A program made the position numbers and the translations under genes. Positions 2,400-63,342 of a DNA stretch of 64,000 bases are shown here, piece after piece. The stretch's first letter is position 1. Each line of letters opens with the position of its first letter. The notes under the pieces were generated by a model that had not been told where the DNA came from, did not search any database, and was given only the letters and a program-made list of their open reading frames with translations. The DNA lies in NCBI RefSeq assembly GCF_027942865.1, contig NC_134519.1, forward strand, positions 23,470,248 through 23,534,247. Reading direction: 5' to 3'. This stretch comes from Odontesthes bonariensis (lineage: Eukaryota > Chordata > Actinopteri > Atheriniformes > Atherinopsidae).

Positions 2400-12646
<10,247 letters not shown>

Positions 12647-15381: not shown

Positions 15382-18300
15382 TCATGTCCGCCGAGGCTCC
15401 AGTCTGTAGGAGAGCTGCGTCAGAGCCCTCTGGTTGTCAATCACGCTGAGCTTCCTAACGTAACCCCGTACCTCCGCCTGATTCTTGTTCGGCTGGCAGA
15501 TGTCAGGGTCTAACCGTGCAGAGAGACAATACAGAGTAGTGTGACTAGAAGGATTGCCTACAATTGCATTGGAATAGTCTGATGTAGAGTGCTAATGACT
15601 TACTGAATGGTTGGCTTCGACAGTGCCTGACTTGTCGAATTGTGTTTGCTATAATACGCTAATGGAACAAAGATACATTTGCTTTAGATATCATGTGTAA
15701 CGTGAGTAAAAAAAAAAAAAGAAGAAAAACAGTAGGAAACTGTAAAAAACAACATTAAACAGACTTCAGAAATGACTTAATTGCTCCTTTAGTGTGCACA
15801 GAAACTCACCATTTTCTCAAAATTGACCATATTATCAATGAAAGTCTTGTTGCCTTCATGTGTAAAGGTCATATCTGTAAGGGAATGAATCAAAACATCT
15901 GAGATTCTCTGTTAGGCACATCATAAGTCAGAAATTAGATGCAATAAATAGAGCAATTGGTGTTTTTTGTTTCTGCCTTACTTATTTATGGGGGGGGGGC
16001 TTGGTTTACAGGCACTGAAACATACCTTTGAGAAGGAGTGGCATGAAGGGGATAATTGGTGGTTCCAGTTTGGTAACAGTAAGTCTGTAAGATCGGTGGT
16101 TTCTCGATGGGTCCTGTTGTGAAACATGTTTATGGTGTCAGTTTCAAATAGAATTAAAGGTCGGGTTACCAGGTCCTTAAAACAAAACTACTTAAGACGA
16201 ACAGTATGTAGCCACGCGTTCATTTCGCCCAGAGTTTTAGGCATGCATACTTTTCAATACATGGATGGTGAATGGAGTTTTCTTTGTCTGACACACAACT
16301 CAAAAACTAATCTGACACTCAATAAGGACTGCCTCTTTCCAGTATAATTATATTACTTAATCTGATCTCAAAGCAAACCCATATTAATATTTGGATTAAT
16401 TTAGACCAAAACTACAGCATTCAGCATTTTCTAGATACAGGACACAGATACAGGAAATGTTTTAACCAATCTGGGTGACCCGACTGTTTAAACCTGCATT
16501 AGAATCTTTTCGGATAGATGCCGAAACAAAACTCACCATCATGCTCTCAAACTCGGCATAAAATTTCTTAAACTTGGTGGGGAGTTTCTGTCGGAGAGAA
16601 CAACAGATGGGATATTGGTGACGAGACATTCATGCAGAACCTCAATAGGATTTAGTTGTTTTCTGATTCTTTTATGATTTACCTCCCACGTCTGGCTCAG
16701 TCTGCTGACAGCGGGGTTGCTCATCCCCATAATGATGGCAAAGAATGAATTGAGGTTCTTAAATTCTCGACAGCTACAGACAAAAACACACGAGAGCAAA
16801 CAAAAGTGAGTGCAACTATCAAACTCGCCCGCTTTTACTTCTGCACGTGACACCCCTCATCACCAGCGCGTTCCACTCACTGTGCCGCTATCTTGATGAA
16901 CTTCTTGAGGAGCTGCACTCTCTTGCTGAGCTGACTGCAGAGGCAGACTTCGGTGACCACCCACAGCTGCACCTGGTTGAACCTCCTCAGGAACAGGTCC
17001 AAGTTCGCCGTTGTTCTCCTGAAGCTCTGGCGGCCGAATGTGTGGTAAAGCAGCTCGTGCTGTGGGAAAGAGCAGAGGGAACTGTCAGAGTGAGTTTGCA
17101 AATTAAGTTTGCAACAGTGCTCTCTGACTTCATTGCCAGGCTCTGTGATTTACTGTTTTTTTCCTTTTTTCTTTTTTCCTTTCAAAGTGCAAGAGAGGCC
17201 TCTTTGTACAAAGTACCTCATGTACGCAGCTGAAAAGTTCCCAGTCAAACATCGTCATCTGATATGCCAAGTCCTTGGAGCTCATCAGCTCAAAGGTTGA
17301 CATGGAGCCTGCAGAGGGGCCTTCTTGGTCTGGAAGAGGACTCTGACGCAAAAACAGCCAAACATACGTTAGCATTCATTCACAGGCATGCCAAACGCAA
17401 GAAAAAAGGCCAAGAAACATCTCATTTAGATACCTTGACACAACAAATTTTAGATTTCTTAGCATGTATTGCATTACATGGGGGTTGAATCATTTTTCTG
17501 GCAACTGTAAGTGTCAGTATAAACCATTTAAAAGCAGTATTATTCAGCTGCACGTGGGTGACACTAGTCTCTTACCAGACCGACAAGCTGCTCTCGAGGA
17601 CAGGCAAATAATCTCCCGTTGATGCTCAAAGTAGAAAACGCCGATACATCATTAGGCTTCAGGATTTGTTTTTCTGTCACGGAAATCAAGACACGCAAGC
17701 CGTCAGCACCACCAAAATATGTCCAACATTTGGCCATACTGGAGAAACTTTAAACCCATGTCATCACAGCAGAGATGGCATTCACAGACAGCACTCGCTC
17801 TTACATGTGATTGCTGCTTTTTTTTTTTTTTTTTTTTTTTGCATACACACTGTTGTAGTTGACTGCAGATTTAAATCCAACACAGTCTTACCAACAGCAG
17901 AGCTGAGATGGACCAGCAGGAGCTCATCAGAGGTGCCAAGTTTGTCGGTCACAGCACCGATCACTTCTCTTCCTGTCGCTGCCACGCCAACCCTGATCGT
18001 AGTGTAAGTGTGATCGCTGCAGTACACCTTCAAGAGAACTGCACATACGCGAGAAAAAATACGGTGCCATAGGTGAAAGCTTCTTGTCTGTAACATTGAA
18101 AATGAGTGGGATAAAGAAATAAAAAAATGTGCAAATGTATACAAGTATGGGAACATGTTTATTCAAATCAAAGATGCTTTCCGAATGTTTACGCCGCTTC
18201 TTCCTCTGTGCTGTGTGACTGATGACTGCCGTCTCTCCCTGGCTGACCCAGGGCAACTGCCTCACAAGTGATTGTTAAGAAAATAGTTTTGGCACGGAGC

Positions 18301-19490
18301 TTATGTTGATTTTAATTTCCACATACTTTCACTAAGTGGGTGTCATGTCAAACTGTCCATCGGATTTTTTCTCCCCCGTCTTGTGTACATAAGAAATGTT
18401 TTGCTTTGATGGCAGCATGACTAGAGGGGTTAGGGATCACCAAAATATCAAACTGTCTCCCAGTGAAGATAAACATCTATACATTCAATGGCACATTCCA
18501 CATCTGTCTATTGAAAATGCTCTTTTGTTTTTTTCCAGACACACAGCTTACTGTCATCTTGATTCCTAATGGGCTGTTTCTTCTGCAGCCTCTCCTCTCC
18601 ATTGCTGAACTGTCGTATAAGAGTCTTCTGCTAAAAGAAACAGCAGCCAATAATCATTTTGCAGCTGATAAACGCAAAGTACACGCAGTATTGTCTATTT
18701 AAAAACAGCGCTCCACACATACCTTTTTTGTTGATTTAGCCTCTTCTGAACTACAAAAAGTCAAAAGTGACACAATAAATCTGGCGGGTACGTAAAGGAT
18801 GAGGCGGAAAGTTTAAGATGCAGGAACAGAGACGTACTGTAACTTCACCGCTTTCTCCAGGTCGGGCACCAAATCTTTCAGGCCCCTCAGCATACGAGAA
18901 TCATTCGCTACACTCCCGTACAACTCCTGCAGGGACAGACGGGGGAGAGCCACTCAGACCAAACACTGCACCTGAATGAGTGCTGGAGCCGACTGTGTTT
19001 GAGGGCTTGCTCTTGCTCACCTCCAGGAAAGAGACTGCAGCGGGCTCCTCCTGCAGCAGGTATGTGTGCGTGTTCGCCCAGCGCAGGGCCAGAATAAGGA
19101 TCCTCCTCTTGCTGTTGAGTGTGTGCTCCAACCTGTCCTGCTCTGAGCCAGGCGGAGATGCCGTATGGTAGGTGCAAACGAGGTTAAAGTGGATTACGAA
19201 ATTTTTTTTAAACTGTTTTCCAGTTTGTTAGTTAACAATCTGGTGCTCAATACTTAATCCACACTTTTATGCAGTCTAGTCTAGCCCTTATAATCTCAGG
19301 TGTTATATAACTCTTACCCAATTCAAAAACTAGACATATCATTATTATTTGTTGTTTCTTAAGAATAAGCACAGTATTCACACAATACAGCAAACAAAAC
19401 TTGAGCTGTAATGAGCAACTTTAGTCTGTTTTCTAAGTTTTGTTTAGGTTTGTACAAGCTGTAAAATGTGCGAGAAATACCACCTAAGTA

Positions 19491-19545
<55 letters not shown>

Positions 19546-22500
19546 TAAAGGCAAAAAGGATATTGTGCCATGAGTAGAGGGCAGAGTTGGCTGTTGGGCA
19601 TGAAGACACAGTGCATGAGAACAAAATCATCCACTGCTGGGTCTAACAGACGGGAAGGAAAACAAACAGACAGCGAGGAAGGAGAATCAGGTGCAGAACA
19701 GAAAATACTGGAATGCAAAAGAACATTTCAAAAGGTAGTGACTCTGCTATGCATTCGACTTTTCTTTGCCTTCTTACTCAAAGTATCCTTACCGATTATA
19801 TTACGGTGGGAAAAAAATTGCCTTGTGCAAACTATATAATGCCCCTGAATGACCACTGAAAACACAACAGAGAACAATCTTTTGTTGTACATATACTGAA
19901 TGAGTAGCTTTCACTGTACATTATTACTGTATTGGTCTTGCTTTAAGTTACATGTGTAAGTTCTTCATGCTTTCTTGCACTTTTTTATCCACCAGAGGTT
20001 TCCAGTTTCACTTCTCCAGTCACCAGCTTGCCCTCCTTCATTTTCAGCACACTTGCCTCTGATAAATGATTACCTCAGTTATATTAATTCATCCAGTTTC
20101 ACACCGGCCACTGCAAGATCTGTTCAACTTTACATTCCTGTCTGTTCTGCTTTGCATTTCTAACGTCCTTTGCCTGAACAGCCTCTTTTTTTTAGCGTTT
20201 TTAACTCTCACAACCCCCCCCCCCCACCCCCGCCTCCAATCTGCCACCAGTACGTTTATATTGCACTGGGGTCCTGTTTTGAGCCGGAATGCGATCATTT
20301 CCTGAAGTATAAGACTTCATTTAATCAAACTAAAAATCAAGTCTTTTAATCATCCTTTTTTTCCTCTGTGCCTACCTGGTTCATTGTGATGTATGTCCAG
20401 TCTTATAGTCTCCAGGAAGTGCTCAAGGATCTTTTCTGGCGTTCCTGATATCACAGTGTATCTGTGTAACAGCGTGAGAGAAAAGCTGTGTATCGGAGAA
20501 AAATGTCCTTTTTCAAGAATGATCAACATACTGAACATACATGCTTTTATTTAATGGATTTATAGGCATTTTAGCAGGCAAAGACCATGCTTTTCTGCTT
20601 GCTCCTCAAGCTATAAAATAACCATATTAAAAACAAAATAAAACTTATTTACATAGCATGTTTAAAATATAGTTTTAACTTTAACAGTCAAAGCAAAAGC
20701 AGGATACGCGGATATGGATGTCACAGAAACCAAGGTCAAGTAAAAGGTCACTGCTGGGTCAAAAGGACCTGATAACAAAAGCACATTTAGATTTAACTAT
20801 TAACTTCTTGAGACTGAGGCTGCCAACTGGATTATACGGGTCAACATTTATGTTAAATAGCCAGATGAGATTTAAAATATATCAATAAAATCTCAGAATC
20901 AATTCTAATACAAAGTCAGAGGAGAGCTTGGGGTATTGTGGGGTATTGTCATCTGCTTTAGACAGTAACAGCATTCTAGACGTATGCAACCAGACATAAT
21001 CGCACTTACTTGATGCTTCCCAGTGTGGATGTTCGGGGACTCTTTTCTAAAACCAGCACAGCTTGTTCGTGCTCTTTCAAACGCACCGTGTTGGCTTCCA
21101 CATCCTAAATCACAAAAACAAAAATCAGCAAAAAATATCTCATTTGCAATACAGTGTATTTGTCAGAGGAGGGAGACAAAGATCACAATCAGGCCGCATC
21201 AGCAACCAGATACTGCTGTACAACACATTAGACAGCCCAAGGAGATGGATGGATCTATAGTTTTTGATGTGGTTAGATTCAGATGGTGTTAACTACATTG
21301 GATGAATTCTAACATGCATCTTCAAACAGATTAAGGGGAAATGTCGGCGCACCCTGAGTATCCTGTTGAAGTCCTCCTTATCCACACGAAGGAAGTGGCA
21401 GTTGTCCTCTCTCAGGACAATGGAAGCAGCACGAGGTGAATCTGTGACCAGGGCCAACTTCCCAAAGTCATCTCCCTCATGAAGTGTGCAAACCACACCC
21501 TGAGATATACAAACATAAATGCATCACTGCAGACGCAGACAAACACACACCAAGATTTAAATGAGCTCAGACACAAACACAGTTTGAAAGTCATCTGGAG
21601 CCCTGGAAAAAAAAAAAACAGAAGACAGCACAAGCACACAGGGCAGGGGGTGAATCACCCGCGCCTGTTTGTGCATGGACATAAGTGAAAACAGTGGGTG
21701 TGCAAAGCAATTACATTTACACTAGTTGTGCGGTGTGGATTCGTGTATGCATGCAATCCCCTAAGCCAGTTAATCACAGTGATGAGTCACTCTAAGCTGA
21801 GCAGCGCTTGCCAAACTCCACTGCTGGTGTTTCCCTGCCCCAGAGGGCTGCTGCTCTGCTCCTCGCAGACATGATGAGTTACGCATCTTAATCCACTACA
21901 TACTGAAGAAATATCATTTAATGACGCAGAAAACTAAGACAAACTGTGAATGTGCCAAAAAGAAACAAACAAACAAACAAAAAAACATGGTGTAAACGGA
22001 TGAATGATACAGGAGCACACCTTGCCATAGATAACCACGTTAACAGAGCCCTTCTGGATGATGTACCATGAAGTGCCCTCCTCTCCTTGGTTAAACACTG
22101 GAAGATCAAGAATAAACATAAAAAACAGTTACATTACTAACATAGACATTCTGGCCACAAGTAGTTTTATGAGGTGCGCCTTTGCATGAGGGCAAGAACG
22201 AAGTCAAGTTTGGACAGACAGATGGGACACACTCATTTTTTAGATTCAGTGCTGTTTATAATACCATTATATATCATTGCCTCTTCTGTCAACCCCTGTT
22301 CAAAATCTATGTAATACAATTACAAATTGGAGAATAAAGCGGCCAGATGCATAAACAGTGTCTACACACAAAAACCATGCAGGCACCTTTTGCTCCACAC
22401 AAACTGTCATTTAGAAAACCAGAATGTGTGCACCTCATGCATTCTTCAGACCATGAGCACACCTGTTTTTAGACCAAATCAATCCTGATATGACACGGAA

Positions 22501-52100: not shown

Positions 52101-54023
52101 TGCTTTTGAAAAGTAATTAGTAGGGATCCAGAGATGAATGAATTAATTCAAAGCTGTTATATTTGACTATAATGTTCAGACCTCTTGAATGAAGCAATCT
52201 TTGTGTCAGACTGGTATATTCCAGTTCCTGATACAGGACGACTAGACTCGAGCGCTCACATAGCCAGAGCTCAGCTAGCTCAAAAGGCGAAGCGCCACCC
52301 ACCTTCACGGGACAAACTCAGAGAGAGCTTCAGAAAACAGGTAAGACACAGTGATAAAAGATGTGACGGCGACCATGTTGAACTTGCCATTTCCATCCTG
52401 TCCTTGTGCTTTGTGTTGCAGCAGGAAGAAGTGGCCATAAAGCCCCAGGAGAGCCGATCGCTGCCCATTTTGACAACGGTCCAAAGTGGCAGAAGCGAGC
52501 TGCCCTGTACCACTTCGTTCTCTGCCCTTAGTCCACAACCTCCCACCACCTCCCTCCTAACTCCTCCCATTTTCATCATTGACACCGTCACGTCTTCGCC
52601 ATGCAAATCCTCAGCGTCCAGAAAATCCAAACGGAAATTTCCCGACTTCAGGTGGAGGATGTCGGTCTTTTTCTTTCACTTATTTTGGATCATGATTCCT
52701 TTTTAGAATCTGTCTCGCTTTCCCCGTCATTCAGGGCAAACCTCTGGGCACTTGCCACAGTGGGAGAGGGCATTTTACAGGTGTCGTGCTCGTTTTCAGA
52801 TTAATTAAAACGAACTCTTCGTTCTTTTTAGCGGCCTCCGCAAGTCTCTCAGCAAGAGGAGTGAGAAACGGAGCAGAAGTTCCATGAACAGTAGGTAAGG
52901 GTCAATCGGGCACAAAAGAAAATACAACTGACTTTTATCATTAAAAATGGGCTTTAAACATAAAATGTCTTCGAGTGGGGTATTAAAGACTCTTCAAAAT
53001 TATTTCTACTTGCATGCTTTTATGTGAATTTTGAATTTGTTTATGGGGGGGGGGGGTGAAAAGCTTGATTACATTTTTTGCAAAATGTACTTTTTTTTTT
53101 TTTTCCTCCAATTTCAAAAGATTGCTAAAATCTCCCAACAATAAACTTGTCACCAGGGCATCGTGTGGTGATTTGATAGATGAGCCCACTGAAGTGTCTC
53201 CATCGGGCTCGGTCACCTCTATGCCCTCCTGCCTTCCCTTTCCCTGGTTTGGGGAGAGGGGGAGAGAAAAAGAGGAAGTGGAGAGGTGCAGGGAGAGGCT
53301 GCGATCTGTGTCCAGCAGCAGTTTGCCTTACCTGACCACAACTGGCAGAAGAGATCAGGTGAGAAAAGGGAGTTCTGATGGGTTTTTCAGCAGGACAGCC
53401 TAGTCCTATTTTAGCCCTTGGGGCTAAAACTGCCTCTAAATAACTCTTAAAGTGGAGATGGCAGTCCACTTTGAAATAAGTGCACGGCGAAGCATGTGGC
53501 AGATATGAAGTATGTAGGCAGCCCAGGACTCTTTCTGTTGGTTCCAGAGTATTGGATCGCCTGTGGGCAGCTCCAGCATGGTGGGCCATGTCTCTGATCA
53601 CTCCCTTTCTGGACACTCTCACACTTGCACATTTTCCTCCTCTGAGGTGAGTCTGTCCTTTCTCCTTTTTCTGCATCCATCTTTCCCCGATGACCACTCT
53701 GTCAACAGTTTTCTGGAGTGCTATCTTTTTAGTTGCAGTTTCTATTCCTTTTTCTCTTTTCTGGTGTTTGGTCAGACTCTGGATGATTATCCAGTTCCCA
53801 ACAATAACAACAATCGGTGGCAAAGCCGCCCGGTCTCGGAGTGGAACACCCAGCAGGTGTGTCTGTGGTTAAGCGCCATGAACATGGATCAGTACATGTC
53901 AGAGTTTACTGCCAAAGGAGTAAATGGGACACAGCTGGTCAACATGGACAATCAGAAGCTTAAGGTGAGGAAACTAATTTATGAAATATTGAAGCTCAGT
54001 TTAAACTTTTGTCATGTAGCATT

Positions 54024-54060
<37 letters not shown>

Positions 54061-54907
54061 TTTTAATTGACAACTTTTTATTTTAAAACGCTTATTTGTA
54101 TTTAAAAGGTCATTAGACCCTGGGCTGAACCTTCCATGAAGTTTCATTCTAGGATCTTTTTAAACTCTCATAATCGAGATTTGAATATAGCCTGGCTGAC
54201 GCGTCCACATCTCGATGAGATGGTGGTCTGGGAACTAGGTGTGCATTTTCTCGTATTTGAGGCGTGGTTTACGAATGCCTAGAGCCGTTTATTGGGCGCT
54301 ACGAATGTCTATCAAATGGCGTCTGGTTCTTCCCATGCTGCTTTGCGCGCGATTCATAGCCAATTGTATCACTTATACCAGATGACGTATGTAGAGCGAC
54401 AGAAATTCGACGTTGCTCTTTTTTAAAAGTAAACTTGCGTTCTAAGCTACTTAAAACACTTTCTAAGGCTGCATCGAACAGTAACGTTGTGTCCGCTGCC
54501 ATGTTGGATTAACACTCTACAAGCTTCGGTGTCTGGCATAGACGTCGTCATCGTCTTGCTGCCCCCCGTTCTGTGATTGGTTCCCTAACTCAGGCAAAAA
54601 TAGGCTGCCTTTGCAGTGTGAATGAAATCGCGTGCAAAGCAGCATGGGAATTCCCAGGCTAATTTGAATACTCCCTTTTTTCTGTCAGGCTCTTGGTGTG
54701 ACCAGTCAAAGTGACCGGTCCGCCCTCAAGAAGAAGCTGCGGGACATGAAGAAAAGCGAGGAGAAAGAGCAGAGAAAAGAACACGGGAAGCTCGATGCAG
54801 AAAAGGAAGGTGAATTCAAGGAGAATGCGAGGATGATGGCGGACGACAAGTCTGTGAAAGAAATCAGACGCAGTGGCAAAACCATACGAACTGAGTCGCT
54901 CTTATAA
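46162..54907 (+). CDS. ppp1r9a-like: Neurabin-type protein phosphatase 1 regulatory subunit 9 (with SAM)
   Basis: Eighteen exons give 1364 residues. Neurabins are actin-binding scaffolds that target PP1, notably in neurons and at cell contacts. The N-terminus [15 protein letters not shown]...FHAIK matches the neurabin/spinophilin opening, and [10 protein letters not shown] (about residue 230) matches their actin-binding region. A long acidic, poorly conserved stretch leads to the PP1 docking motif KVSF (617-620) in [12 protein letters not shown]. The PDZ domain covers about 672-757 ([35 protein letters not shown]). A coiled coil (about 825-945) and a SAM domain (about 1247-1310, [20 protein letters not shown]) follow. 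Spinophilin lacks SAM, so this is neurabin-I-like, perhaps the fish ppp1r9a-like gene. Start: first of two adjacent ATGs in the conserved frame. The last residues are TESLL. Confidence 0.93.
49618..49643. repeat. Poly(T) tract in a neurabin intron
   Basis: About 26 T in the intron between exons 49144-49248 and 50411-50504. Confidence 0.95.
54030..54057. repeat. Poly(A) tract in the last neurabin intron
   Basis: About 28 A, 65 bases past the donor of exon 53776-53964. Confidence 0.95.
54188..54661. mobile_element. hAT-like non-autonomous DNA transposon with intact target duplication
   Basis: The element starts TAGCCTGG and ends CCAGGCTA, a perfect 8-bp inverted terminus. Identical ATTTGAATA copies flank it (54179-54187 and 54662-54670). 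An 8-bp duplication plus a chance A would fit hAT elements. The 474-bp interior lacks a transposase frame. The sequence resembles a repeat I recall as widespread in fish. It occupies most of the last neurabin intron and stops 27 bases before the final exon. Confidence 0.85.
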
Positions 54908-55353: not shown

Positions 55354-55359
55354 TTTATT
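55354..55359 (-). terminator. Candidate poly(A) signal of the integrin gene
   Basis: TTTATT on the plus strand gives AATAAA on the minus strand, about 570 bases past the integrin B-tail stop. It sits only 83 bases from the opposing neurabin signal. Confidence 0.5.
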
Positions 55360-55927
55360 TAAGAAACGAGGCTCTATTTTGCAGCCTGTGGTTTGGAAGT
55401 ATATTTACAAAGGACATTCTCCACTTTCGCATAAGTAACAATATCAGCACAATCACGGGCACCTTTGAGTGCAAGAAAAATATAAATGTTTCAACTGTTT
55501 AAGCAGAGTTTTTAGAGGGGGGAGATGGGACTCTTTTAAAGTAATTGAAACTTAAGATTTCAGTACACAAGTCACCAGTGTATGCATTACATGACGCTTT
55601 GGCCTTTTAGAAGAGCTAACAATGTACTCAAGAATAAATACAATTCAGAACATTCAAATGTACAAAATGACTACAACAAGTTCTCTACCTGCAAAGCCCC
55701 TAATCCAAAACTTAATACACCAAAGAAGCTCCAAAAGCCCCACTGGTGGTAATTGTGCATGACCATCTCTTACACTTTAATCAAATACAATACAGCCCTT
55801 GGAGCAGAATGTCTGATCCAATATTAAGTCCAAACAAAAGTGTTTCCCAAATGATTTAGTTTGATATTTACAGTCATTGTGCAAAGGCAAACTCTGAAAC
55901 TGGTGGTTCATCAATAAGCAACAGTGA

Positions 55928-58900
55928 CTATGTGCAGTCAGATTTCATTGGCTGTGAAGAGTAGTGTTCGTTGTCATGCCACCTCGTCATCCATGGCTTC
56001 TTTTCCGGGTTGTCCCGGTTGCCATTTCCAGCGTTTATCGCTCTCTCCTCCCGTCTGATCCGAACTGCGTTGTAACTAGGTACCTTCTCTTCATATTTGG
56101 CACGCTCAAAAAAGCCACACTGCAGAGGAGAAGGACAAAGTCAGATAATTCCTGAAGGGAAAAAAAAACAACTCTTCTAAAAACTATTCAGAGAAAGCCC
56201 AGTGAGCTTAAGTAAGAAACATCCACCATCAGTCTAACACGTGCCAAAATGCAATGAATCCATTGAGAGGTGTAGATGAGTCATCTGTGCACCTCTATGG
56301 AGAAAGGAAACTTGTTCTTATGCCCTGCTTTTAAGAGTAAAGAAAAAAAAACTTCAGACCAAGCAGCTTTGTGTGCAGTAGTGATGATACAAACTGGAAA
56401 CGGTAGAAGAGACCAATGAGATGCAGCTCAGCCCCCAAAGTATTCCTCAAAGCAGAAGGTAACGCTGTCGTTGCTCATAAGCCATCAACTCCCCCAGCCA
56501 TGCAAGTAAGAAATGTGACGATACACACACAGCAATGTGTGCGAATCTTTTAGACATGTTTTTTGCGGACATAATCATTCAGCTTCTATATAAGCATTTG
56601 TGTCACAGTGTGAGTGTTGCCCACTGCCTGCCTAATACCAGAAAGCAGTACTTTTATAGCAAGAAGTAACCAGAGGAGAAAGTTTCATTCATGGCAGACA
56701 CGGCAATTTTACCATCTCATTTTTATGCATTTGATGTCAGCTTCTCTTTTTCAGATGTGTCCTCTTTATTCTTTTTCTCAAAGACTCCACACTGAGGAGA
56801 GGCAAATCATTAGAAACGTCTGTGGTTAATGTCGTGCATGCCGAAGGCTGTTTTGTAAATGGTGTTTGAAAGTAAAAAAAACTTCAAGGCTTTTTTACTG
56901 AACATCCTACAAATAAGGGGTATAATGTAAAAGTTTTTTTTTGCTCGCTGGAATGTGGTGTGCCCCTGGTCTATATATCGTCAGTCCTACCTTCCAAAGA
57001 AGAAAAGCAAGTAAAGCCAACAACAGCAGCCCGAACAGGATGGACAGCAGGATGATCCACCACGGCACTCCCCCAAACTGAGCTGCGCGCCTCTCTGGGA
57101 ACGCAGTCAATCTTGCCTGAAAAACATCAGCGTTAGGTACACTGAACCAGATGAACACAAAAAGAAACTCTTAAATTTGATGTCATCTTCTTTATCCAGT
57201 GACAGTTTTTTTAGCTTTTTAGCAAAACCTGCAAATTTCAGGTACATTTCATTTGAAAAAAAATAGAGCCTCAACCAACTGTTTTAAGTCGTAAGCTTCA
57301 AGATTCGCGAAGCTAGATTGGAATTTGGTGAAACGAAAAAAAAAAAAGTGAAAATGTATTAACGTAGGTCAGGTAGTTGGATAGCTCAAAATTAAGATCT
57401 CCATCTGTAAAAACCTGGAGGCGGTGTGACGGCAAAGGCAAGCATGGCCTTTACAGGCACTGGGTTCGGGGTGTTTGTTGGCGATGTCAAAGAAGACAAT
57501 TATGAGGTATGAAAATGCATGTCAACCAAGAAATAATGAGGTTAGAATACAAGCTTTTCCCATTAGTTTTTAATTACCTCTGTCACAGCACTCTGCAGCA
57601 CCACGCTCTTTGTTTTGCTATCAACGTGCAGAGATGCCTTCACTTTTATCTCCACATGTGTCTTGGAATATTCCTGTTTAAAAAAAAAATAAAAAAGGAA
57701 TAGAAGAAGAAGAAGAGGAGATCATGTTTAAAGTTCTTGATATTTCATGTTTATTATGCAAAAAATCAAAACCCTTTAGCGCTGCAAACCCCTGAGTATC
57801 AAAAAGATAAATCCTCTTTAACCATCTTTTACCTGTATGAAGGTGGAATTCCAGAGGCGAGAGGTGAGAGTGATGATTGCATTACTGTCCAAGCCCGTCA
57901 GGTGGCACTCGATCCTCACACATTTTGCCCCACTCTCACAGGACTGTCAACAAATGGAGCAAAACGTTATAACCGGATTCTCCCTTTTACCGCTTAAATA
58001 TACTGATAAAAGAAAGAGGAAGACAATAAAAACTGCTCGTGCGGGGTTACCAGAGTTTTTGAAACTTTCTCTAAGCGTGAAAAAGTAGCCTCGATATCTC
58101 CCAGCGTGTTTTCTGCTGCTCTTCTCCTCCTGGTTTTAAGTTCCTTTAAGCAGAGCAAAAACGTTCACTTGCTTACTTCATTTAGCTCGTAATCTTTACT
58201 TGTCTAGAAAAAAAAAACATCAAAAACTAAAGAAGTAGGCTGAGAAACAACCAGACATTAATACGTTTTCACTCACAAGATTACGAGGGTTGATCTCTTC
58301 AGGAGTGCAATCCATATGATCAATGCCAGAGGAGTTGATTGCCACCAGATAGAGAAGCCAATCATTCTTCTCTGTCATCTTTGGCCAGTCTATTTTCAAG
58401 GTGACGGCACCTAAGTCTGTCAAGCTTTTCCCCAGGTTGAGTATCTGTAAAAACAGCAACATCGTGCTACCTCAGCGGATACAATATTACTGATCTATCT
58501 AGGACATAGAGGGTGTTGGTTTCATAACCAATTTAAAAAAGTGCACAAAAAAATATTTGTGCATCATGGAGACAAGCAGCTTCCCTGTACTCACATTGAA
58601 TTGGTGCATGACAGGACTTCCAACGTCGCTTACAGTGTTCATATTTGACTCATCCTTGACTTTCCCAGAAAAGTAGACCTGAGACGGCTGGGCTTGTCTG
58701 GGAAGACAGACAGACATCCACTGTCAGCTGCATCGATCGTTGCATACTTTTCTGTTTGTGCTTACATGTGTGGGTGCGTGTTTCTTACCCTAACAAAGAA
58801 AGCTGCAACATGATGGCCACCTTTGCCTTCGCTTTGATAGCTTGTTTCTGCTGTTCACTTGTCCTGCCAGATAGAATTTACACAAAGCTCAACTCAAAAT

Positions 58901-61900
58901 ACTCCTAAGAAGCTATAGAAATGGCATTGTGTATAATTAAAGTATATTAATTACATTCCAGTGCGTGAGTGTGTCTGCAGTGTTTCTAAGACAAATCAAT
59001 GCAATTTGAACACTTTGTGCTGAAGGAGCACATACTTACGTTTCTATCTGAAGATCTACCTCCAGTTCAGAAGAGCTGCGAGAGATGCCAACAGTGCCCA
59101 TAATAATGTAGAAGGTTGTCTATAAACAAACACAGTTTTCAAGTATGCACAATGACACGTGTGTAAAATGAGTGAGAAAGTGCCACTGAGTGAATTTCTC
59201 TAACCTCTGAGTCACGTTTGAAGGGGTTCCCAAGCTCACATTGAGCCTCGGAACCATCTTTATTGGCTGTGCATTTGACCGGCTTTACCTGAAAGCAACA
59301 ATACGTCCCGGTCAGAGTCAAAAGTCTGTATGTGTGCGACTGTAAGAGGCAGAAGGTTTATGGGACAGAGAGACTTACATCGGGTGAAACACGAAAACCA
59401 GAGTAGGTCAGGGAGCGGGGCAAGAGGGCGATCAGGGACGCTTCGTGTGCGTCATCTCCATTCAGATTGGTTACTGTGACCTCCAAGGCAATTTCCTTTT
59501 GGTTGCTGAGCAAAATCAGTGGCACACCCTTCTCCCTACAAACAAATGGAGAATGCGATGTATACAGTATATATGACTCAATATGGTAACCCTCTCTACG
59601 TGATGATTTTCCCTGTTAATAAAATGACACAACGTGAAAAACAAGCATTTTCTCACAATTCAAATGGAGTGAACTTCTCGTCGTCGACTGTCCTGAAGCC
59701 ATAGCGATATTTCATCTGCAGCTTGCTGTGACATACGTTCCCTTCACAGCCCTCTTTCATGAAGTGCACCTGCAGACATGTTTATGCGCATTGAAAACAT
59801 AGCACTGGGAAGTGGAAAAAAATACACCTACAGCTACATCTGCCCTTTAATAAGTTCATCTATGCATTCAGTATGATGCACACACACCTCTTCTCGAGTT
59901 GGAATTTCGTCCTTGGCGTCCAGCACAGGTGGCAGTTGAGGAGCTGGGGTCTGTCTGCGTTTGCGCTTGGTCTCCTCAATAGCCACAGACACATCGATGG
60001 GAATGGCACGTAGCTTATCTCTAATGTTTTCCTGAAGGATGATGACGGCACAGAAAATTACCCACGACCCACATTTCACTTTTATCCCCACAGAAAGATG
60101 AAATTCTACCTACCTGCATGGCAAGTTTACGTCGAATACACTGTTCTTTTCCTTTGGTGTCCATACTGATCTTGCCCTTAGACTCATAGTTATTATCAGA
60201 ATCAGAAGCCTCTGTGAACCTGGCCCTGGGTAAAAGACCTTTCTCCCTGCGGTCAGCATCTGCCTTCAGGGTGTATGCCACCGCTAAACGGGACAAAGGA
60301 AGGGTATGAGAGAGCAGAATATGAGTCGAAGAAGTACTGAGACATTGTGTGCATTTAGTGGCAGCATGAGGAGAAAATGTAATGAAGATAACATTTTGCT
60401 TCAGTAAAGCAACTAATGCTAAAAATGTGGCTCAGCTTACTTATTCTGGGACCGTAGCTCTGGGGCTGGGCAGTGTAGGAGAAGCATGCTTCAACAGTCA
60501 AGCTGTGGAAAAAATGCATATTGAACTATATAGATAGATGGAATAATATGATTGATTGAAAATTAAAAGTAATTAAGAATTAAGTCTTCTACAGACTTAA
60601 TAAGACAAACAGTGTCCCCCATACCAGAAACTGTTGCCACAGTTCTTTGTGCTGAGGTCGATTTTGCTTGGTGAGAAAGTGACTTTCTTCTCGATTTTAA
60701 TAACTGGTTGGGCTCTGTGAGGAAAGAAAACCTCAGTGAACATCTCAGGGAGCATGATGAGAACTTGATCAGATTAATGTCCTTGATCACTCACCTGTAG
60801 ACAAAGACGGCATCAGAGAGAGATCCGACAGCGAGGTCTGGATAGGAGTTCCTATCGAGGTCCATATTGCCTGCCAAAGAGTAGCCATACAGCTTCACTC
60901 CAACATCCTTGCCACGTAGCTCCTAAAGCAGCAAGAACACAAATTTAAGATCAGGGGTGGAAAAGTTATGCCCTGAATGTTATCTGACATCTGCGTTTCA
61001 GATAAATCAGACTCAATCAAACAGAATAGATAAATAGAGATACATAAACTCTCCTTTTTCCCAAAAACTATGCATTAGAGTGATTTGATTGTTAGACAAC
61101 TGGGTCAACGCTATGCATCTTGAAAGTGCATTTTAAAAGACAGCGTGGTGGTTAAATAACAGCGGCGAGCATAAGTGGAGATCAGCAAAACCTTCAGCAT
61201 AAAATCGCAATGAAATAAGACTCCGAGAATTTGTTTTATAGTACATAATAGGATACAAGCCCTTTACTTACAGTTGTTTAGAGAGATAAAGCATAACATT
61301 AAAACTGATTTAAACTCCAAGAAAGAATGCGGAGGTTGGGATTTTTTATATTCCTAAAACAAACATTACACACTGCAGCCGCTTTATATAACGTAACCAA
61401 ACTGCAAAATCTGCAGACAGTAGTGAAAAAGTTACATGGAAAAGTTTTTAAAAAAAAGCTACCTGTGCAGCTTTCAAAGACTTGAGATCAGTGTTCGATC
61501 CATGGTAGATGTAAACTTTCCCCATGCCATCGCCATCATAAGGAGCTCCCACTGCAAAATCTGACAGCAGGACAATGTGCTTATACAATTCATTTATGGA
61601 GGAGGTGTCAACAAGGACCAGCAGACGGTAGCATACACATACACACTCACCTTGGTAACCATCCTGATTGATATCTCCCAGGTTTTCCACAGCCAGGCCG
61701 AACATGGAGTCCTTCGGTCCATCTATTCTGGTGGGTGTGACTTTGTTCCACTTTCCAGCCTTGTTGATGTAGATGTAGACAGCTCCTCCAATTTCTCCAT
61801 CCTTCTCAAAGTACTGAGGTGCTCCCACCACTATGTCCTCCCATCTAACAAACAGGAGTATTTAAGGCTCATTAGCATAGTATGAAAAAGCAATAATAGC

Positions 61901-62987
61901 GACAGTGATTGAATTGTGTCACCCTGTAACCTCACCCATCTTTGTTGAAATCCAGCACAGCCAGATCGTAGCCGAAAGACGAGGCCAATCCCTCCCCCTC
62001 CAAGATGAACTCCTTAACCAAGATGTTGGTCAAATCTCCGCCTTTCTTCAGCAGCACCACCGCGCCACTGTGGTTTGCTCTGGGAGCTCCCGCCACCACC
62101 GTCAGCTGGCCCTTCTTGGTCAAACTCTTCCCTGAGTCCAGAGAAAATCCTGACAGAAGGAAACAACAACAAAAAAAGAGTGCTTTCGTCGTCAAGCATC
62201 AGTGTACGCTCTTTTGGGGTCATGGTGAAGTAAAGAGATATTTTTACCCAGGTAGCTGTTGGTAGGAACAGGAACCAGGTCAGGGTTCAGTTTTTTCTCA
62301 TCAGCTGTCTCAAACGGCCCATCGAAATAGATGCCCATGCTGTAGAGAGTGTCATTCCTTTGCTCCATGTGAACCTCACCTTAATAAAAGAAGGGGAGAT
62401 GAGAGGAGATGAGATGAGATGTGTGACTTGCGATAAAAGTATGCACACAACGAAGTAACCCTTACGAAGGAGTCATCTTAAAGGAATGACTGAAAAAGCA
62501 TCAGCTGCAAAATTCACTGTTTTCATCAAAAATCATGCCGACTAAATAAATAGAAACATAAGCAGCATTCTCCTGTTAATATTCATAACTACATGGCGCG
62601 CATGCACACATTCACAGACACACAAAACTACCTTTCCAGTTGTAAGCTCCGGGAGCTCCAAAGATGAGGTAATGGTAGTCCTTATCAAAAACAGCGGAGA
62701 GGCCCTGCTGGCAGGAGCCAAACAGCTCGTGGCCTATGTTCCGGCCTTTACAAAAATGCCAGTTGTCTCCCTCTTCGGGCGATGTCGTGTCGATGGTCAA
62801 GTCTTGACCCAGCACGTAGCAGCGACCGATGATGGCACGGGTATTAGCACTTGGGTTCACGTTCTGGTAGCGATGGGCACAAGTCTGCCAAGGAAACAGA
62901 ACAACATAATTGACTACAAAAACATTTCTGACAGGTACCAGTCGGAACAATTTAATAATGATGTTGGTAATAATGAGTTGAAAAGTT

Positions 62988-63028
<41 letters not shown>

Positions 63029-63342
63029 TATATAAAGGCAGCCTTACCACAACCTTGCCGCCTGGCCCTTGACTGTTGACAGTCACCCCCATCCATTGGT
63101 TTTCTTTGATGTCTTCCTCGGTTTCTACACAAGCACAGATGACGGAAGAATCGTCAGTTTTAGTTTTGATAAAACATTTCAAATTTCCCTTAAATGTATC
63201 TCCACGGGACTCACCCTGATTATCAAAGATAACTCTCGTGCAGGCTTTGGTGGTGGAGCTCATGTCACAGCTGTAGAGCCCTCCTGTCACTTTAGACCGT
63301 TGACCATTCAAGGCTTTTGCTCTTGGCGCGCCAATCAGCAGT
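55928..63342 (-). CDS. itga6: Integrin alpha-6-type subunit (5' end outside window)
   Basis: The visible CDS with the B tail covers about 1038 codons. Integrin alpha-6 pairs with beta-1 or beta-4 as a laminin receptor at the basal cell surface. The beta-propeller blades begin at LLIGAPRAKAL, with calcium-binding loops near FNKDGWEDI, INQDGYQDF and LDRNSYPDL. The exon 62248-62379 (ending VPVPTNSYLG) corresponds to the human X1 segment. Thigh and calf regions follow, with a furin site TRRRRAAE in exon 58051-58143 that would split heavy and light chains. The membrane span is VPWWIILLSILFGLLLLALL, followed by AFLLWK. The laminin-binding group (ITGA3/6/7) fits best, and the B tail (KVPSYNAVRIRREERAI) points to ITGA6. 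The signal peptide and first blade are not in the window. Confidence 0.94.
56713..56791 (-). CDS. itga6: Alternative cytoplasmic-tail exon A of the integrin gene
   Basis: After a CCTCTCCTCAG acceptor the exon reads CGVFEKKNKEDTS... and ends KLTSNA and a TAA (CDS to 56723). A GTAAAA donor follows ten bases later, so it can be a cassette exon carrying its own stop. The ending resembles human alpha-6A (...ERLTSDA), and its position between the membrane exon and tail B matches the human order. It is about 13 residues shorter than human 6A, and the membrane-proximal GFFKR is replaced by GVFEK. Confidence 0.82.
62991..63029. repeat. (TA)n microsatellite
   Basis: About 17 TA units ending 19 bases from exon 63048-63124, in an integrin intron. 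Confidence 0.95.

Follow-up and report, generated by a model that had tools for sequence, protein, structure and literature searches.

Do the two alternative tails of an integrin alpha-6 gene, lying on the minus strand at the right end of this window (the whole stretch of DNA analysed, 64,000 nucleotides of the Odontesthes bonariensis genome), carry changes that would alter the receptor's hold on its beta chain? The membrane-proximal GFFKR motif is a standard model for how integrins stay inactive, and an earlier note on this DNA, finding both tails without it, had predicted a weakened or rewired inner-membrane clasp and perhaps a partly active receptor. We conclude that the sequence is real and correctly placed and that this interpretation was partly over-read: the locus holds a receptor variant, and rewiring is not demonstrated. 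The best explanation as a whole, to which we assign a probability of about 0.62, is drift at the membrane-proximal motif in both alternative tail exons of an ITGA6 co-ortholog that looks intact.

The window contains the 3′ part of the gene (Table 1). Its headpiece block carries an FG-GAP Pfam match and is closest to integrin alpha-6 (PDB 7ceb, E 2.1e-33; next integrin alpha-V, E 2.8e-07) in a comparison with 46 PDB sequences that include neither alpha-3 nor alpha-7. These two were compared solely via their tails: tail B scored 167 against alpha-6B, 119 against alpha-3B and 87.5 against alpha-7B. The earlier assignment to integrin alpha-6 is thus borne out by headpiece similarity; zebrafish is reported to have three such genes, itga6a, itga6b and itga6l (PMC13286361). 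The order of the coding blocks also follows from tblastn with human ITGA6, and in the PDB the transmembrane exon matches the membrane-spanning parts of alpha-5, alpha-1, alpha-IIb and alpha-V. When 19 neighbouring block pairs were joined at GT-AG sites, a first pass gave 13 convincing joins, 2 implausible ones and 4 empty pairs, and a second pass gained joins for all 4 empty pairs and for one of the two poor pairs. Donors are weak in two joins, 59657/59535 and 58265/57943. The second of these passes over the furin-site segment, which the gene model leaves out together with a small exon just upstream of the transmembrane one and a short intron that probably lies within the first block. With coding blocks traced up to 63341, the 5′ end of the gene was not found.

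Table 1. Features of the window, in order of position
Feature	Position	Strand	Basis or remark
MAP3K20 kinase exons	8069-12646	-	same orientation as the integrin gene
RAPGEF4 exons	16542-21523	-	match at 16542-16856; cNMP-binding domain at 21296-21523
Probable 3′ untranslated region, with polyadenylation-signal-like ATTAAA (55781) and AATAAA (55359)	55359..55927	-	pattern match only
Tail B coding part, CGFFERAKYEEK...NEHYSSQPMKSDCT and stop TAG	55928..56119	-	frame, acceptor, tail alignment
Possible end of the tail A exon (donor ATG/GTAAAA)	56713	-	by eye
Tail A coding part, CGVFEKKNKEDTSEKEKLTSNA and stop TAA	56723..56791	-	similarity to Xenopus alpha-6A tail
Transmembrane exon ARLTAFPERRAAQFGGVPWWIILLSILFGLLLLALLAFLLWK, donor AAG/GTAGGA, acceptor at 57116 inferred	56991..57116	-	splice-site reading, PDB alignments
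Ordered blocks coding for the extracellular part of the integrin (roughly human residues 39 to 940)	57833..63341	-	PDB match, tblastn, splice joins

The MAP3K20 and RAPGEF4 genes probably extend past the listed pieces, and both are neighbours of ITGA6 in human as well, an arrangement that would favour the ITGA6 identification. On the plus strand at 53518-54907, running towards the integrin gene, a SAM domain (PF07647, stretch 53518-54066) is followed by a charged stretch; together they presumably resemble neurabin (PPP1R9A), which to our knowledge does not lie beside ITGA6 in human.

Both alternative tail exons, A then B, are present in the order shared with known alpha-6 genes (human and Xenopus), which the locus also resembles in its headpiece. 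Exon A, whose first base is 56791, is preceded by TTTGCCTCTCCTCAG and reads through to its stop; exon B is preceded by CTTTGTCCTTCTCCTCTGCAG and reads CGFFERAKYEEKVPSYNAVRIRREERAINAGNGNRDNPEKKPWMTRWHDNEHYSSQPMKSDCT, ending in SDCT, with 55928 as the last base of its stop codon. Each lies behind a good splice acceptor, and since the transmembrane exon ends LLWK/GTAGGA, tails A and B both join in phase 0. The spliced products would read LLWKCGFFER for tail B, in which GFFxR is present, and LLWKCGVFEKK for tail A, in which it is absent. The existence of two tail exons and the motif letters reported for them, GFFER and GVFEK, are therefore confirmed by translation.

Alignment scores point the same way when the first six residues of each tail are removed: the rest of tail A scores 36.0 against the Xenopus alpha-6A tail and the rest of tail B 134 against its human alpha-6B counterpart, values equalled by none of 2000 shuffles in either case. 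As judged from sequence, the tail exons are not chance sequence. Neither tail was listed at E up to 1 for Pfam PF00357, the integrin alpha cytoplasmic region (curated cut-off 20.2 bits). Among five control tails, which were fragments run at E up to 10, alpha-1 alone passed (20.3), alpha-IIb and alpha-5 reached 16.6 and 14.8, and the alpha-10 and alpha-11 peptides gave no match, so the absence of a PF00357 match says little. When all six frames of the window were scanned, the patterns G[FV]F-x-[RK] and C[GD][FV]F returned exons A and B and one unrelated GFFSR (53380, plus strand); no further tail exon carrying GFFKR came to light, a pattern search of this kind missing any motif that an intron interrupts. 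The search for relatives gave 12 pattern matches in viral contigs and 135 in bacterial and archaeal contigs, none of which was confirmed, as one would expect of an animal gene.

How unusual are these letters? The earlier description of GFFKR as nearly invariant overstates the case where the Lys and Arg slots are concerned. Xenopus alpha-6 has GFFRR (PMC2871791), a silkworm integrin KIGFFNR (PMC12799189), and peptides of human alpha-10 and alpha-11 read GFFAH and GFFRS (PMC8748766). An oyster survey (PMC7390872) writes the motif as GFFXR and attributes it to 7 of 8 oyster alpha chains and to every one of the 18 human chains, the latter statement conflicting with the alpha-10 and alpha-11 peptides of PMC8748766. 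Like the tails described here, alpha-10 and alpha-11 occur naturally and lack Lys-Arg behind GFF. They differ in having both Phe, one of which is lost in tail A, and no Glu at that place, and in lacking the Arg that tail B has. Xenopus alpha-6, the same gene, already varies at the Lys slot, but the positive charge retained there is reversed in tail B. Known alpha-6 chains have GFFKR or GFFRR where we find GFFER and GVFEK(K).

Within the literature searched, the charge reversal of tail B is uncommon and differs in kind from the Arg or Asn found elsewhere. No natural GFFER integrin was found there, the one text match being an 1845 small-pox note that presumably contains a scanning error; GFFDR together with integrin gave no acidic precedent, the match being to amphibian skin peptides; and no fish alpha-6 tail sequence was found. 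Human alpha-8 may have GFFDR. By itself, GFFER is a modest variation at a motif position already known to vary.

Tail B, which is strongly similar to the human alpha-6B tail, retains the Gly, both Phe and the clasp Arg, and the Lys slot alone is altered, to Glu. According to the portion of PMC8569584 available, cysteine labelling of alpha-IIb finds G991, F992, F993 and R995 membrane-embedded and K994 exposed, and the activating changes R995D, F993A and F992A-F993A hit the Phe pair and the Arg. By analogy, the Lys-to-Glu change of tail B would sit at the one exposed, variable slot of the motif. Since GFFER fits the looser GFFxR with the embedded residues intact, a lost clasp is not predicted for tail B, whose alpha/beta clasp would be expected to form about as usual. 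The same portion of that source describes cysteine mutations of the alpha-IIb GFFKR as activating and does not set K994 apart (PMC8569584), so altering the motif can have consequences and no slot should be assumed free.

The spacing of small residues at the outer clasp, a motif named in PMC5893634, is kept as well: PDB alignments give S-ILF-G here against A-ILF-G in alpha-5 and G-VLG-G in alpha-IIb.

A base-calling error at the single GAG codon by which the tail B motif differs is possible. As an explanation of the locus, an assembly or base error at one site has very little probability indeed, because the changes in tail A are numerous and in frame and the window contains no N; several changes together with a loss of 13-15 codons in an open frame make such an error unlikely in tail A.

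Tail A is the more divergent of the two. Its first Phe is replaced by Val and its Arg slot holds Lys (GVFEKK), so the loss of one Phe and of the Arg is as previously described. Its shortening is equally clear: by alignment to alpha-6A tails it is without 13-15 middle residues, and counted from the Cys it has 22 residues, compared with 35 in the human tail and, counting from the corresponding residue, 36 in Xenopus.

The placement of its Glu is less straightforward. Read with the Glu as an insertion, CGVF[E]KKNKED against CGFFKRNKKD (the human tail) gives seven identities in the first ten columns, versus four when it is read as a substitution; against the Xenopus tail, the insertion reading raises the identities over the first ten columns from three to four. 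Against the human tail the inserted codon wins at all four gap costs, and against Xenopus at two of four. Depending on the alignment, the Glu of tail A may be an extra codon and not a changed Lys. An identical Lys-to-Glu substitution in both exons was accordingly not upheld, the insertion alignment competing with it in the gap-cost comparison, and of the claim that Glu occupies the Lys position in both exons the half concerning tail B stands while the half concerning tail A is insecure. This bears on the idea of a parallel adaptive charge change, in which Glu was selected at the same slot in both exons, with a matching change in the beta chain or a tail-binding adaptor. In both exons, Glu does come right after the second position of the Phe pair, but with a possible codon insertion in tail A the coincidence is weaker than it appears, and we consider such parallel selection unlikely.

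The reading in which both tails have a weakened or rewired clasp and yield a partly active alpha-6 receptor finds its best footing in tail A, where the first Phe and the Arg, residues of the kind whose change activates alpha-IIb (R995D, F993A, F992A-F993A; PMC8569584), are gone; a Glu near the membrane could in addition repel acidic residues of the beta chain. Against it stand the Gly, both Phe and the Arg retained in tail B, where the altered slot corresponds to one exposed in alpha-IIb, and the Lys of tail A, which preserves the positive charge. Other integrins also speak against a simple rule: F992A or F993A activates alpha-IIb, whereas FF/AA is reported to have had little effect in alpha-V (PMC3639902), and a broken Arg-Asp bridge is, as described in PMC5893634, not always activating. 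The effects of motif mutations would thus seem to differ from integrin to integrin. On this comparison, a partly active receptor appears possible for tail A, whose clasp may be somewhat weaker, and is not indicated for tail B; neither tail's change alone, as read from the DNA, demonstrates an unusually active receptor. We therefore regard a clasp weakened in both tails as doubtful and favour drift at the motif in an otherwise intact-looking gene.

Is exon A still in use? Beyond the motif it keeps basic residues after the Phe and a distal S-x-KE-x-LTS-x-A end, and a hand count finds 7 of the last 11 residues common to tail A (TSEKEKLTSNA) and Xenopus alpha-6A (PSDKERLTSDA). This conservation suggests that exon A is used though diverged. 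In quail myoblasts the 11 C-terminal residues of alpha-6A reportedly inhibit proliferation and favour differentiation, and its last three, SDA, are described as a PDZ-binding motif (PMC5930856); the SNA end of tail A probably keeps that role. That exon A is instead decaying and unused, leaving tail B alone to matter, would account for the missing middle residues and the lost part of the motif, but has little probability in view of the open frame, the good acceptor and the conserved distal block. The intron between A and B (56123-56715, minus strand) adds a weak argument against decay: it holds 15 TGG where 8.9 are expected, a number reached by 19 of 1000 letter shuffles. Its first 300 bases taken alone hold 8 TGG against 5.0 expected (99 of 1000 shuffles), which makes the excess weak evidence. 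The TGG triplets are possibly ESRP-type splicing sites, the excess being in the direction expected for ESRP-type regulation.

Relaxed constraint at the motif would be the likely cause of the drift in both exons, perhaps through a preference for beta-4. Where both beta chains occur together, alpha-6 seems to pair preferentially with beta-4 (PMC5930856), and AlphaFold2 models of human integrins show a helical membrane-proximal region with a conserved Asp at the interface, to which beta-4 and beta-8 are given as exceptions (PMC10187181). A partner whose predicted membrane-proximal region is without the usual helix makes relaxed constraint plausible. Against this view, alpha-6 pairs with beta-1 too, which is not named among the exceptions in the part of PMC10187181 available. 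A stronger version holds that the alpha-6 of this lineage abandoned the usual clasp chemistry in both tails and that the acidic residue marks a lineage-specific, beta-4-adapted clasp; alpha-6 would then work mainly with beta-4, whose membrane-proximal region, in that reading, offers no usual clasp partner. We hold this to be distinctly unlikely. In a single genome, relaxed constraint, adaptation and lineage-wide fixation look the same. A natural alpha-6 that has Glu at the exposed slot and leaves GFF-R intact offers a ready-made way to learn which motif residues count and whether the alpha-6/beta-4 pair needs a clasp at all.

Tail B differs from its counterpart at the far end as well. It runs nine residues (SQPMKSDCT; 55928-55957, minus strand) beyond the end of human alpha-6B, replacing the C-terminal SYS, which in human alpha-6B is described as an alternative PDZ-binding end (PMC5930856).
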